Source of the DNA: a virus
Virus record (IMG/VR): IMGVR_UViG_3300034122_001692
Span: 1-46,210 of that record
DNA length: 46,210 nt
Strand: one strand, 5' to 3'
Shown here: one piece after another, positions 2,174 through 12,828 of the stretch
Layout of the letters: every line of letters begins with the position of its first letter
How positions within the stretch are numbered: position 1 is the first letter of the stretch
The notes under the pieces: generated by a model
Told to the model about the DNA's origin: nothing
The model's input: only the letters and a program-made list of their open reading frames with translations
Databases searched by the model: none
Made by a program: the position numbers and the translations under genes

Positions 2174-2425
2174 ATGGAACAAGATACTACTTATGGGAAG
2201 GCAGATGTCGTTTATAGCCTAAATCCGGATTTTTCTGTGGAAGAATCCGTGATTGAAGAGATCAGGAAGAGGAGCCAAGTTGGATTCAAGAAATACGGCA
2301 AGACCATGACACGGACCGACCTTTCGGTCCGGGAATGGTTACAGCATGCCCTTGAAGAAGCCTTGGACCTGTCGGTATACCTGAAGCGCGTAATTATGGA
2401 AATGGATGGCAAGATTAAGCCTTGA
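2174..2425 (+). CDS. Putative all-alpha NTP-pyrophosphatase-like small protein
   Basis: 83 residues from ATG 2174 (MEQDTTYGKADVVYSLNPDF). It carries RSQVGFKKYGKTM and the helix WLQHALEEALDLSVYLKR. The EExxD arrangement (EEALD) on an amphipathic helix recalls MazG/dUTPase-type all-alpha nucleotide pyrophosphatases, and similar KYG...W.HALEE..D proteins are widespread in phages. It is on the opposite strand to its neighbours. The start at 2174 is preferred to 2078 because the longer version overlaps the divergent leftward gene. Enzymatic activity is inference. Confidence 0.65.
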   Translation: MEQDTTYGKADVVYSLNPDFSVEESVIEEIRKRSQVGFKKYGKTMTRTDLSVREWLQHALEEALDLSVYLKRVIMEMDGKIKP

Positions 2426-2696
2426 ACTATGCCAAAAGGCGTCCTATCCATTGGTGTCCATAAAAGACTACATATCAATTTACAAGGAAAAATACCAAGC
2501 ATGGCTTAAAGAAAGTCAAGTAAGAGCCCTTATAAAAAATGACAAGATTGATTATGTGAAACACAATGACCGCATATACGTGGTCATTAATCAAAGGTCT
2601 ATGGAAGGCTTGAGTACGCCGAAAAATGCCCGAATTCGCATCAAGAAATCGCTGAAAGAGAAGACTCGCTGGGGCTTAACGGATCGCAGGATGTAG
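2406..2696 (+). CDS. Excisionase/MerR-like small DNA-binding protein
   Basis: 96 residues, overlapping the upstream gene by 20 bp. Residues about 17-63 (SIKDYISIYKEKYQAWLKES, then QVRALIKNDKIDYVKHNDR, then IYVVI) look like a winged-helix excisionase/MerR-type fold: helix, turn, recognition helix, then a wing. The last 35 residues overlap the 3' end of the converging leftward gene (2591-3148). A regulatory role is inferred from the fold only. Confidence 0.5.
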   Translation: MARLSLELCQKASYPLVSIKDYISIYKEKYQAWLKESQVRALIKNDKIDYVKHNDRIYVVINQRSMEGLSTPKNARIRIKKSLKEKTRWGLTDRRM

Positions 2697-3148
2697 ATGT
2701 CCTGAGGAGCTGCAGGAATGCCTCCAAAGTAAACCTTCAGCATGTAGGTCACAAAGGGTATCCGAACCTTAAACGTGGTGCAAACGCCGTTTATGCAAAC
2801 CGAAGCGTTGTTGCCTTGGTTTGAAATCAAGCAGTCAACCACATCCCCGGGCTTTACGATAGTGGACTTTCTTATCTCCCGAACGCCATTCACATACGAA
2901 GTGGCGTAGAGCTGAATGGCCTTGCCATCCTCCGTCGGTAGCCAACAGACGCGAACAGAGTTCCGCTTGTGGTACGGCATACCGGATATCCCCCAAAGCT
3001 TGTTGATCCCATAGATGTACCCCTCAGTGGGGTACAAGCAACTTTGCGTGAAAACAAAGGAGCGCTTCCATATTGTCCCCATTGTAGGGAGCATGGGGTC
3101 GTTCAATGGCCAGTTCTGACCCTTCTTTATGACGATTACTTTTTGCAT
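2591..3148 (-). CDS. Bacteroidetes-type uncharacterised beta-rich protein
   Basis: 185 residues. The central order GISGMPYHKRNSVRVCW, then IQLYATSYVNGVREIRKS, then VYFGGIPAAPQDIYI matches a recurrent uncharacterised family in Bacteroidetes and their phages, which I remember with the signature H-H-K-N-S-A-R-F-G-W ... Y-V-N-G-K-R ... Y-F-G-G-x-x-x-A-P-H-D-I. Alternating hydrophobics suggest a beta sandwich. No known function. The 3' end overlaps the converging rightward gene by about 100 bp. Confidence 0.65.
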   Translation of the reverse strand: MQKVIVIKKGQNWPLNDPMLPTMGTIWKRSFVFTQSCLYPTEGYIYGINKLWGISGMPYHKRNSVRVCWLPTEDGKAIQLYATSYVNGVREIRKSTIVKPGDVVDCLISNQGNNASVCINGVCTTFKVRIPFVTYMLKVYFGGIPAAPQDIYILRSVKPQRVFSFSDFLMRIRAFFGVLKPSIDL

Positions 3149-3195
3149 AGGATGTTGTCTAATTAGTTAACAAAATTGGGGAATTGAGTGTTGCA

Positions 3196-3639
3196 CTACC
3201 GGTGGATGATGATTGGTATCGCCTTTCCAATTGGTTGCTTGACAACGGACTGCTCGTCCTTGTAAAGACCATGGCAGACTCTACCGTCAAAGAAGGTGTA
3301 GTACACAATGCGTTTGTGGGAGAAAAGATCCGGAAGCAGAGTTGACTCTATCTTGATGATCGTCCTGGATATTCTATTGTCAACATCGCTGAGGCTTGAA
3401 ATAGTATTATAGGCATGCATGGCAGAAACGTGGTCCGATAGGCCGAACTCCTCGGATATTTTTTGGTAGCCAATTTCCAAATGTTTCCGGCATAGGTACA
3501 TCGCTATGTGCCTGGGCTCTACGTTGTGCCTCTTCTTGCCGGACTTAGCGTTCATGACTTCGGGATCGCATCCGTACTTTTCGCATACGGATTTCTTTAC
3601 TTTATTTACAAGTTCTACAATTTCTTCGTATCGTGGCAT
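3196..3639 (-). CDS. DnaA domain IV-like DNA-binding protein
   Basis: 147 residues from ATG 3639 (MPRYEEIVELVNKVKKSVCE). Residues about 40-80 reproduce the DnaA C-terminal DNA-binding domain: RHIAMYLCRKHLEIGYQKIS, then FGLSDHVSAMHAYNTI (compare FGGRDHTTVLHA of DnaA). No AAA+ ATPase is present, so this is a stand-alone origin-binding-type module followed by about 60 further residues. The start six bases after the methyltransferase stop fits tight packing. It may recruit host replication proteins or act as a regulator at the repeats around 15.4-17.8 kb (inference). Confidence 0.75.
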   Translation of the reverse strand: MPRYEEIVELVNKVKKSVCEKYGCDPEVMNAKSGKKRHNVEPRHIAMYLCRKHLEIGYQKISEEFGLSDHVSAMHAYNTISSLSDVDNRISRTIIKIESTLLPDLFSHKRIVYYTFFDGRVCHGLYKDEQSVVKQPIGKAIPIIIHR

Positions 3640-3644
3640 ATTGC

Positions 3645-5015
3645 TTATTTGTTTATTATTTTTTCTATTAGTTGAATGCGTTGACCAATCCACCGCATAA
3701 CCGGCACGGCCATTGAGTTACCGCAAGCCTTGTACCTCGGTCCATCGGGGCATTGGTCGGCTTCCTTGTTTCGGTAGGGAATCTTCGTCCAATCATCGGG
3801 GAATCCTTGTAGGCGTTCGCACTCCTTGGGGGTCAGCCTTCGGATAGCCATTAAGTGCAACACGGCTCCAATATGCTCGGTGTCTGATTGTGAGCGAATG
3901 GTTTGCGTGGTGTGGTCGTTTGTGGTGTAATTGTAGGTGTCCACGGCTATCGGTTGGGCAACGACATCTCTCTCCCCAAAATTAGCAGAACCACATCCCT
4001 TGAAATAATTTGCGTCAATCGTTCCTGCTATATTTCCATTTATTCCTATCGGTTGAGCAATCTGCTGATCCTGCATTGTGCTAATCGTAAACGCTTGCTC
4101 TTCTTGACCGAGATATCCTTTTCCTCCACCTTCGCATCCACCACGAACCTTGAAGGCTATCGGTTGGGCAACAACATTCGTGCTTCGTACATCTCCAACA
4201 TCAAAGCAATTTATCGTATTGGCCGTTTCATCCTTCTCCCAGGTTTCAAAGTCGCTATCGCTTTGCGCTCTTCTCACTTTACGAAATGGTTGCTGAAGTA
4301 TAGCCCCAAAGTTATCCTTATCCGGCATCCGTTGTGCGCCATTCGCATTCTGCTTGGTTAAGGTTCCTGCAACTTGACTTCCGTCCCACCAACTGCCTGC
4401 CTCTCCAACGCTTCCTTCAGCATTGGCGGTAACTTCTTCCCTCTTTTTTCTGCTCGGTTTAGTATTCCCTTGCAGGCTTTCTCGCTCAAATAGAACCGCT
4501 GCGGCAACTCGCCAGTCTCCAAGGTATCCGACAACAAACACTCTTCTGCGTCTTTGGGCGACTCCGAAGTATTGAGCGTCAAGAACTCTGTATGCGAACC
4601 CATACCCGAGTTCCCCCAACGCCCCGAGGAAGGTGCCAAAATCTTTTCCTCCGTTGGACGACAATACACCGGGGACATTTTCCCAGACGATCCACTTGGG
4701 ACGGAGTTTATCAGCGATTGAAAGAAAGGTAAGCATGAGGTTCCCTCGTGGGTCATCAAGTCCCTTGCGAAGTCCTGCGACGGAGAAGGATTGGCATGGG
4801 GTTCCCCCCACGAGAAGGTCAATTGGTCGTTCATCTGCGATTGGGTTTTGGTTAATGGTTGTCATATCTCCCAAGTTAGGAACCGTTGGGAACCGGTGTT
4901 TCAGCACATCCGAAGGGAATTGTTCAATCTCTGAGAACCATTGCGGCTCCCACCCGAGGTTATGCCAAGCGACTGTAGCCGCTTCAATGCCTGAGCAAAC
5001 TGATCCGTATTTCAT
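3645..5015 (-). CDS. C5-cytosine DNA methyltransferase (orphan)
   Basis: 456 residues with the ordered motifs of C5-cytosine methyltransferases: motif I SVCSGIEAA (5-13), motif IV GGTPCQSFS with catalytic C74, motif VI WENVPG (E112), motif VIII QRRRR (154-158), motifs IX/X LTPKECERLQGFPDDW (from 394) and ACGNSMAVPVMRWIG. It transfers methyl from S-adenosylmethionine to cytosine in phage or host DNA. The target-recognition region (about 180-390) contains three related VAQPIA/IAQPIG segments, as in phage Dcm-type enzymes. No restriction endonuclease is adjacent, so it probably protects phage DNA. A second frame is open over codons 61-219 (see separate entry). Confidence 0.93.
   Translation of the reverse strand: MKYGSVCSGIEAATVAWHNLGWEPQWFSEIEQFPSDVLKHRFPTVPNLGDMTTINQNPIADERPIDLLVGGTPCQSFSVAGLRKGLDDPRGNLMLTFLSIADKLRPKWIVWENVPGVLSSNGGKDFGTFLGALGELGYGFAYRVLDAQYFGVAQRRRRVFVVGYLGDWRVAAAVLFERESLQGNTKPSRKKREEVTANAEGSVGEAGSWWDGSQVAGTLTKQNANGAQRMPDKDNFGAILQQPFRKVRRAQSDSDFETWEKDETANTINCFDVGDVRSTNVVAQPIAFKVRGGCEGGGKGYLGQEEQAFTISTMQDQQIAQPIGINGNIAGTIDANYFKGCGSANFGERDVVAQPIAVDTYNYTTNDHTTQTIRSQSDTEHIGAVLHLMAIRRLTPKECERLQGFPDDWTKIPYRNKEADQCPDGPRYKACGNSMAVPVMRWIGQRIQLIEKIINK
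4358..4834 (-). CDS. Possible overprinted ORF inside the methyltransferase gene
   Basis: A 158-codon frame on the same strand, shifted by one base relative to the methyltransferase. Its sequence looks protein-like, e.g. YCRPTEEKILAPSSGRWGNS, then FYLSEKACKGILNRAEKRGK. I have the impression that this kind of LSxKACxGILxRAEKRGK sequence is annotated as separate proteins in other phages carrying Dcm-type genes, but that could also be conserved shadow translation forced by the methyltransferase codons. Reported as possible, not established. Confidence 0.3.
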   Translation of the reverse strand: MNDQLTFSWGEPHANPSPSQDFARDLMTHEGTSCLPFFQSLINSVPSGSSGKMSPVYCRPTEEKILAPSSGRWGNSGMGSHTEFLTLNTSESPKDAEECLLSDTLETGELPQRFYLSEKACKGILNRAEKRGKKLPPMLKEALERQAVGGTEVKLQEP

Positions 5016-7679: not shown

Positions 7680-7997
7680 TTAAAAAGGGTTAGGGGGTAG
7701 GGGCATCCAGTAGAGAACTGAGGATAATTCATTTAAGGACTCCCAACAAAAAGATGCATCATCAAGCTCAGATAAACATTCTACGGTTTGATAGCCATGT
7801 TTTGTAAACACTAGAACATCTTCACCCAAAGCGGGTTTCTTTTTTTTCAATTTAATCCATTTTCTGCTACGCTCTTCTACAAGCCTAATGATTTCTTCTT
7901 GCTCCTTTTCAGTGAGCATCACATCACCATTCGAATCTCGCATCTGCTCGAAGCATGAGCGCAAGCTCCATTCGGTTTTGATTGTTTTGTTTTTCAT
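7680..7997 (-). CDS. DUF551-type protein
   Basis: 105 residues. The C-terminal half shows the DUF551 pattern: WIKLKKKKPALGEDVLVFTK, a variable middle, then the hallmark YWMPLPPNPF. An N-terminal helical extension of about 45 residues precedes it. DUF551 is common in phages and prophages and has no established function. The gene is a tandem paralogue of 8007-8201. Confidence 0.75.
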   Translation of the reverse strand: MKNKTIKTEWSLRSCFEQMRDSNGDVMLTEKEQEEIIRLVEERSRKWIKLKKKKPALGEDVLVFTKHGYQTVECLSELDDASFCWESLNELSSVLYWMPLPPNPF

Positions 7998-8006
7998 CGG
8001 TTTGGA

Positions 8007-8201
8007 TTAAAATGGGTTTGGGGGTAGGGGCATCCAGTGGCTGACTTCGGTTAGGAACCAAGATTGGTGTTCGTAGGACCAAAGGTGGCGGTTCTCAAGC
8101 CAGCCCATAAATTGATTCATGTCCGTTGTGAAAATCAGGACGGGTTCACCAAGTTCCGGCATACGCTCGGAACATTTAATCCATTTTGTTTCGTCGCTCA
8201 T
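8007..8201 (-). CDS. DUF551-type protein (short paralogue)
   Basis: 64 residues consisting of just the DUF551 module: WIKCSERMPELGEPVLIFTT ... SHWMPLPPNPF. It ends in the same nine residues as its neighbour at 7680-7997, indicating local duplication followed by divergence. Function unknown for the family. Confidence 0.8.
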   Translation of the reverse strand: MSDETKWIKCSERMPELGEPVLIFTTDMNQFMGWLENRHLWSYEHQSWFLTEVSHWMPLPPNPF

Positions 8202-11819: not shown

Positions 11820-12791
11820 TTATTTAGATGACTTCTTGGTTGGGATCAGTACCATCACGGGTGTGCCGTCTTCTGTCCCGTCTTGTACGAGTTCCCAGTT
11901 GTAATCGCTGTCAAGGTAGAACGATCGATGGTGCGTCTCTGGGTTGCTGCTATTCTTCCTAACTTGAATGAAGCCGCCGGTGGCTGCAGTAAGTCCCAAG
12001 GATTTACAAACATCTTCTGAAACAATTCTTCTTTCCTGCCCGGATTTATTAGCATGCTCGGAGAAGTCAAAGTACTTGCTCTCCTCGGGGAAGCAGTCGG
12101 GGTGGTTCTTCTTGATCTTGGGTTTCCAAGTTGAACATGCTAATTCGTGCAGTCCACGGATGGCTTCGTCGGTAGTAGTTCCGTCCAACTTGAAGTGCTC
12201 GGATAGGTACGCCCTTTGCGGTGTAGTTGCTGCTTCGTAGTACTCGTTGAGTAACTCACGGGAGATTTGGATCTGTTTTGACATGGTTGTTTGGGTTTGG
12301 TTTGAGTTTGTGATTTGACGGAATTGTTTTAAGGTTATTTCTACAAATTGAGGATAATCATCAAGGCAGTTTGCGATGGAACCACCATAGTACTTGCTTT
12401 CGTCACGCGGATGGCCGGACACTAGGGTATAACCAACTTGAAAACGGGTGTAGCGTTCATCTGCATTGCTTCTCCACCAAGCATAGAGTTCTTTAAAGTT
12501 TTCTTCTGTGGCTTCGATGCACCAGTGTTCAGGTTGTGTCATGGGTTGTGTGTTTGTGATTTGACGGAATTGTTCGAGGGTGATTTCTTGGTAGGATGGA
12601 TGCCTTTCGGTAAGGCCTTCCTCGGGACCGCCCCAATAATAACTTGAATCTGTTGGGTGCTCTGAAAGCAATATCCTTCCTTCTCTTAGGTCAGCCCATC
12701 CGCTTCCTTTAGTTTTCGTTCGCCACCACGGCTGAAGTTCTGCGCAGTTCTCTTCGGTTACAGGGATGTACCATTTTTCTGGATGTTTCAT
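11820..12791 (-). CDS. Three-cassette protein with tandem WWR domains
   Basis: 323 residues composed of three units. Unit 1 (1-80) and unit 2 (84-162) are homologous: each has a P-E-x-W start, TEEN, an EL..WWR segment, HP.D.S.Y.GG and ends EITL.QFRQITN. Unit 3 (170-323) is unrelated and begins MSKQIQISRELLNEYYEAAT. Both junctions contain an ATG (12542 and 12284) preceded by the arm's AAACC-type leader, which is here translated as linker. So this may be three genes fused by stop loss, or a gene with internal starts. No function known. Confidence 0.65.
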   Translation of the reverse strand: MKHPEKWYIPVTEENCAELQPWWRTKTKGSGWADLREGRILLSEHPTDSSYYWGGPEEGLTERHPSYQEITLEQFRQITNTQPMTQPEHWCIEATEENFKELYAWWRSNADERYTRFQVGYTLVSGHPRDESKYYGGSIANCLDDYPQFVEITLKQFRQITNSNQTQTTMSKQIQISRELLNEYYEAATTPQRAYLSEHFKLDGTTTDEAIRGLHELACSTWKPKIKKNHPDCFPEESKYFDFSEHANKSGQERRIVSEDVCKSLGLTAATGGFIQVRKNSSNPETHHRSFYLDSDYNWELVQDGTEDGTPVMVLIPTKKSSK

Positions 12792-12801
12792 TTGATTTGG
12801 G

Positions 12802-12828
12802 TTTAGGGTTTAGGGTTTAGGGTTTAGG
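12802..12828. repeat. TTTAGGG heptamer repeat
   Basis: Nearly four tandem copies of TTTAGGG on the plus strand (CCCTAAA on the coding strand), forming the leader of the gene starting at 12791. The unit is the same as the usual AACCC/TAAACC leader words of this arm, so it looks like a local slippage expansion of the leader motif. Confidence 0.85.

Follow-up and report, generated by a model that had tools for sequence, protein, structure and literature searches.

Phage domain mosaicism, in which non-homologous proteins share a fragment, has been described as a continuing process by which related genomes gain, lose and exchange such pieces, though the study was agnostic on the genetic process behind it (PMC10684548). 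In Cluster K mycobacteriophages, start-associated sequences (SAS) are repeated just upstream of the starts of small non-structural genes. SAS is a fixed 13-bp motif (GGGATAGGAGCCC) of actinobacterial phages, and the authors proposed that it could be a target of homologous recombination, adding to mosaicism (PMC3203893). Rickettsia palindromic elements (RPEs) are palindromic repeats of about 150 bp which were inserted in frame within the ORFs of unrelated genes, adding a conserved peptide to their products (PMC10969869). Single parts of the mechanism proposed below are therefore already known from these three precedents.

Here we analysed a stretch of viral DNA of 46,210 nucleotides (IMG/VR record IMGVR_UViG_3300034122_001692), called the window, in which one gene contains two copies of an 80-residue unit, U, followed by an unrelated unit, U3. 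As in domain mosaicism, U was common to non-homologous proteins, namely those of U3, of a gene called X and of AAA ATPases. However, it was one defined small piece without a stop codon, joined at leaders, with empty and filled sites. Unlike SAS, the leaders of the window were A+C-rich, of AAACC type and had hardly any G (a mean of 1.2 per 20 nt), the 13-bp motif was not found in them, and leaders of the U system become translated linkers. U resembled RPEs in standing in frame at unrelated genes for which empty sites exist, whereas it was about 260 bp long, non-palindromic, located in leaders and equipped with its own start, and it is predicted to form a folded domain of 80 residues. The inverted repeats expected of RPEs or of MITEs were not present at U in either region scanned (L023:3400-3800 and L035:3950-4400). 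Integron gene cassettes are modular, are added successively in one orientation, and are normally complete genes with stops. U pieces were likewise modular, successive and of one orientation; however, they had no stop, and an inverted-repeat scan found none at their borders.

The three-unit gene and its junctions

The ORF at 11820-12791(-) encodes 323 aa with the architecture U-U-U3. Its features were as follows.

Unit 1 (U1), 12543..12791, minus strand: residues 1-83, a type-A U domain with the linker ITNTQP
Unit 2 (U2), 12285..12542, minus strand: residues 84-169, a type-B U domain with the linker ITNSNQTQTT; inner ATG at 12542
Unit 3 (U3), 11820..12284, minus strand: residues 170-323 (154 aa), unrelated to U; inner ATG at 12284
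Junction 1, 12543..12588, minus strand: conserved unit end (CAATTCCGTCAAATCACAAAC), then a leader-like A+C stretch, then the ATG at 12542
Junction 2, 12285..12342, minus strand: conserved unit end, then a G-free leader-like stretch (CAAACCAAACCCAAACAACC), then the ATG at 12284
Leader of the whole ORF, 12792..12828, minus strand: includes a tandem (TAAACCC) array of 4.3 copies at 12799-12828

A sequence-only reading of this gene had pointed to three fused cassettes, and as an observation it was confirmed, the coordinates, both inner ATGs and both linkers being correct. The two units of about 80 residues which it took to be homologous were 44% identical over the unit, and the third, which it called unrelated, was not matched in a profile search with U. 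It had also noticed flanking sequence shared by the leaders; the two unit ends had in common a 40-nt direct repeat (12303-12342 and 12549-12588, 88% identity), in which CGTCAAATCACAAAC was contained exactly. The ORF was not an assembly artefact because a second record (L002) was 99.96% identical to the window over 10,981 bp around the gene. The window carried terminase, portal and virion genes on its other arm and therefore belongs to a tailed phage.

Some other observations were made in the window. The heptamer TAAACCC, of which the leader of the ORF (12799-12828) contained 4.3 exact copies, is also the repeat unit of plant-type telomeres. A protein-like ORF of 158 aa (4358-4834(-)) lay in another frame wholly within a DNA methyltransferase ORF (3645-5015(-)), and both matched PHROG families annotated as DNA methyltransferase. 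Two adjacent genes on the minus strand (7680-7997 and 8007-8201) had the common ending WMPLPPNPF and matched the same PHROG families, another small duplication within the arm of the ORF.

The resemblance of the junctions to gene leaders was analysed by taking the 20 nt upstream of the two inner ATGs and comparing them with the same stretch upstream of 29 ORF starts and of 92 further internal ATGs in frame, all on the same arm. The starts were hand-picked from mechanical ORFs and a few may be wrong, which would weaken the contrast between starts and internal ATGs, not produce it. A+C accounted for 19 of 20 nt before 12542 and for all 20 before 12284, and G was absent at both. None of the 92 other internal ATGs reached 19 (maximum 18). 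The means per 20 nt were 14.0 A+C and 1.2 G for the starts and 10.6 A+C and 4.7 G for the internal ATGs. The position-weight score grouped both junctions with real starts: their scores were 6.1 and 5.9, where the median start had 5.2 and the median internal ATG -5.2, and only 2 of the 92 internal ATGs scored as high. AAACC occurred within 35 nt upstream of 10 of the 29 arm starts, of 2 of the 92 internal ATGs and of the 12284 junction, and was absent from the 35 nt before the 12542 junction. The claim that the same AAACC-type leader precedes both inner ATGs was thus strictly correct for 12284 alone. Judged from the leader type, the host of these phages is probably a member of the Bacteroidetes.

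Relatives, empty sites and exchange of units

Relatives were collected by scans of viral contigs and by profile searches, and U was found in the following architectures.

U-U3: L020, L038 and L199
UU-U3: the window, L003, L006, L008, L010, L019 and L042
UUU-U3: L004 and its copies L005 and L009
UUUU-U3: L007, with a GTG start at 4992
UUUUU-U3: L036/L037
U-X (gene X): L023-L027 and L029
U-ATPase: L033, on the same contig as L006; a dynein-related ATPase of AAA_5/CbbQ type
UU-ATPase: L178, on the same contig as L020; a second ATPase, also AAA_5/CbbQ type
U as a separate ORF: L035, L039 and L040; its tail is the leader of the next gene

Unrelated genes, namely X, U3 and the two AAA ATPases, thus carried the same piece in frame, and empty sites existed for X and for a gene whose product begins MNLLEQ. 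Duplication and fusion of cassettes, as suggested earlier, agreed well with one to five units before the same U3 and with U as a separate ORF or fused elsewhere; the homologues were not all full-length fusions with unrelated junctions. The expectation that the units occur as separate proteins in relatives was borne out for U (L035, L039 and L040) and not for U3, since every one of the distinct U3 loci recovered had at least one U. That U3 was once a gene by itself was therefore not demonstrated, which counts against the explanation preferred below. For the first ATPase, a relative without U (L049) was 74% identical, its upstream region being too different for an empty-site comparison. Distant, older-looking U fusions without a leader-type linker were found in L181 and L180. 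L181 had two neighbouring paralogous genes (2271-3618), each with a distant U domain and then a second domain without such a linker, possibly an older form of the U fusion. U and a C-terminal domain may therefore be an old pairing, with only the extra units and the exported units being recent. Annotated phage records gave no relative at E values up to 10, the L181 protein had only insignificant matches among annotated phages, and no relative was confirmed in bacterial or archaeal genomes.

Gene X gave the clearest view of an insertion site. Of its loci, 12 lacked U and 7 carried it, and their X proteins matched the query at 88-100% identity. Filled and empty sites occurred in genomes with near-identical flanks. 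In the alignment the empty leader read AACCCTTAAACCCCAAAACA-ATG and the filled one AACCCTTAAACCCTAAACCATAAACCAA-ATG...U...CGTCAAATCACAAACCCAACCCCCAAAACA-ATG. Between AACCCTTAAA and the ATG of X lay 10 nt in the empty L055 and 273 nt in the filled loci, indicating an insert of 263 bp within the X leader. The residual leader CCCCAAAACA was identical in both, untranslated when the site is empty and coding for the linker when it is filled. This is a direct demonstration of a translated ex-leader, and it supported the earlier proposal that leaders are read as linkers. Empty X also occurred beside differing upstream sequences (L056, L058 and L059). This variety of contexts favours insertion over loss or precise deletion, as an argument and not as proof. 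On the X tree filled and empty alleles were interspersed, which makes it likely that gain, loss or recombination happened more than once. The ends of the X insert had only short AAACCC-like similarity and no clear target-site duplication.

At the MNLLEQ gene 37 loci were empty and three (L035, L039 and L040) were filled. In the filled loci ATGAACCTACT... was duplicated on both sides of U (24 nt at 92% in L035), the first codons of the MNLLEQ gene thus standing ahead of U as well, and the 5' joint differed among the three. The unit end entered AACCCAAACCTTAAATC, read as NPNLKS, so that U ended in ITNPNLKS, and its stop was a TGA overlapping the ATG of the next gene. Because the stop was supplied by the following leader, U has none of its own and the sequence downstream decides whether a fusion results. 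The loss of a stop codon, by which the fusion had first been explained, is probably a wrong or unneeded assumption, as the U piece simply runs into the following leader. An origin from three once-separate genes that lost their stops was rejected for U on the same ground.

Units were also exchanged within and between phages, as indicated by the tree pairings, by a contrast between two filled X loci and by the pattern in L178. The unit tree comprised 35 units, without the later-found L178 pair, and showed three main types. The type-B clade, home of U2 of the window, had a support of 100/99, and all units outside U3 fusions were of type A, as is U1 of the window (the L178 pair was outside the tree). 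The units borne by X resembled either U1 of the window (90% nucleotide identity) or a unit of another phage (88%): those of L023 and L025 were closest to U1 of the window (90.1% and 88.5%), and that of L029 paired with unit 2 of the L007 U3 fusion (support 100/94). Between L023 and L029 identity was 97% in the upstream region and 94% in X, whereas U reached only 86%. In L178 (2989-3540) the two units before the AAA ATPase were near-identical in their middle part and diverged at both ends, a pattern as after gene conversion or end exchange. Furthermore, units with under 60% protein identity showed codon identity above the codon-usage expectation at the unit end (by 0.54 at R76, 0.34 at I78 and 0.38 at T79). 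Taken as a block, the last eight codons exceeded the rest at a marginal p = 0.05, and some positions near the unit start likewise exceeded the expectation. This excess would suit a recombination tract and was taken as supporting evidence only.

Origin of the arrays and the inner ATGs

We observed directly that copy number varies, that U has several unrelated recipients, that sites occur both empty and filled, that units are exchanged between loci and between phages, and that the X leader serves as a linker. From these observations we consider it likely that the gene arose by cassette accretion, in which a stopless U was joined at leaders and the leader of the recipient became translated. The cassette would consist of a short leader and the 80-residue coding unit, whose stopless 3' end (...CAATTCCGTCAAATCACAAAC) would itself be leader-like. 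It would be joined upstream of a gene at an AAACC-type leader, so that the recipient leader comes to be translated. If joined in frame, the leader would become a linker and U would be added to the N-terminus of the recipient; if joined out of frame, the leader would provide a stop overlapping the ATG of the recipient, and U would be a separate ORF. Repeated joining would give arrays of one to five units, and U1 and U2 of the window would have been placed before U3 by the same route. Since the insert ends were leader-like, the breakpoints A+C-rich and of AAACC type, inverted repeats lacking and the orientation constant, we infer that joining occurred by illegitimate or short-homology recombination at the leaders, with no dedicated enzyme. 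However, N/T/Q/P-rich linkers are common between domains and are A+C-rich through their codons alone, which counts against this explanation.

An added claim, compatible with cassette accretion, is that the inner ATGs are functional, giving nested products (full-length, U2-U3 and U3) with the recipient still made alone. We regard this as an open possibility, somewhat short of an even chance, judging from sequence features. All 18 unit-to-recipient junctions had retained the ATG, as had 12 of the 17 between units (Fisher p = 0.019, with rows that are not phylogenetically independent), and the ATG at the start of U3 (12284 in the window) was present in all 13 distinct U3 fusions. However, recent joints would retain their ATG anyway, and its loss at 5 of 17 unit-to-unit junctions indicates that relatives can do without the start at 12542. 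In L036 two of the four unit-to-unit junctions (4089 and 4614) had TTG or ATT, the others ATG. In Flavobacterium johnsoniae, A at positions -3, -6, -12 and -13 favours initiation (PMC6847099). Junction 2 had A at all four positions and no G, whereas junction 1 had A at -12 and -13 and none at -3 or -6. Initiation at 12284 is thus plausible, and less so at 12542.

More tentatively, the stopless cassettes may form an N-terminal tagging system, in which leaders would act both as start context and as recombination joints and tagged and untagged protein would both be made. If so, a mobile domain could be added, removed or exchanged at many N-termini in one step, and recipients could still be translated from their own starts.

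It seems improbable that U is a non-autonomous mobile element, similar to a MITE or to an RPE, moved by a trans-acting enzyme that targets leaders. Such an element would account for the discrete 263-bp insert, the filled and empty alleles, the exchange across phages, the use of one target class (a leader adjoining an ATG) at several sites and the 24-nt flanking duplication at the MNLLEQ site. However, the borders were without inverted repeats, for which reason a transposon-like reading was set aside. Nor was a constant target-site duplication evident: none was clear at X, that of L035 was 24 nt, and the 5' joints of L035, L039 and L040 differed. U moreover never changed orientation and in every case preceded a gene.

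Still less probable is ordinary tandem duplication of a domain in one old multi-domain protein, with accidental N/T/Q/P linkers and Met: repeat proteins in general vary in unit number, as does one fusion family here, the unit-to-unit Met was lost at 5 of 17 junctions and distant fused forms exist. However, it leaves unexplained why the same unit precedes X, the MNLLEQ gene and both AAA ATPases, why near-identical genomes have empty sites and why the X linker equals a pre-existing untranslated leader, and the empty and filled X sites have largely refuted it already.

Predicted fold and meaning for the phages

The AlphaFold2 model of unit 1 (mean pLDDT 89) predicted a compact alpha/beta domain, and that of U3 was poor (pLDDT 57). 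Neither U nor U3 matched a Pfam or PHROG family or, by sequence, a PDB entry; U had no PDB match by fold either, and a viral fold library gave only weak matches (best E 0.054, an unnamed protein). U was attached to AAA ATPases and to X- and U3-type genes, often as several diverged copies, and our best guess, held with low confidence, is that it is a small accessory module, perhaps protein-binding.

The real finding, beyond the single gene, is a wider system of a stopless cassette that makes linkers out of leaders as it spreads. The origins of multi-domain proteins are usually inferred from old events, whereas here the intermediates coexist in related viruses: the empty leader, the out-of-frame cassette as a separate ORF, the in-frame fusion and the arrays of two to five units. 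Together, a stopless cassette and a translatable leader provide a concrete route to fusion, by which small genes fuse almost stepwise. Bacteroidetes-type leaders have no Shine-Dalgarno G runs and are read through as N/T/Q/P linkers. Whether such leaders ease gene fusion, compared with those of other bacteria and their phages, is thus a testable question.
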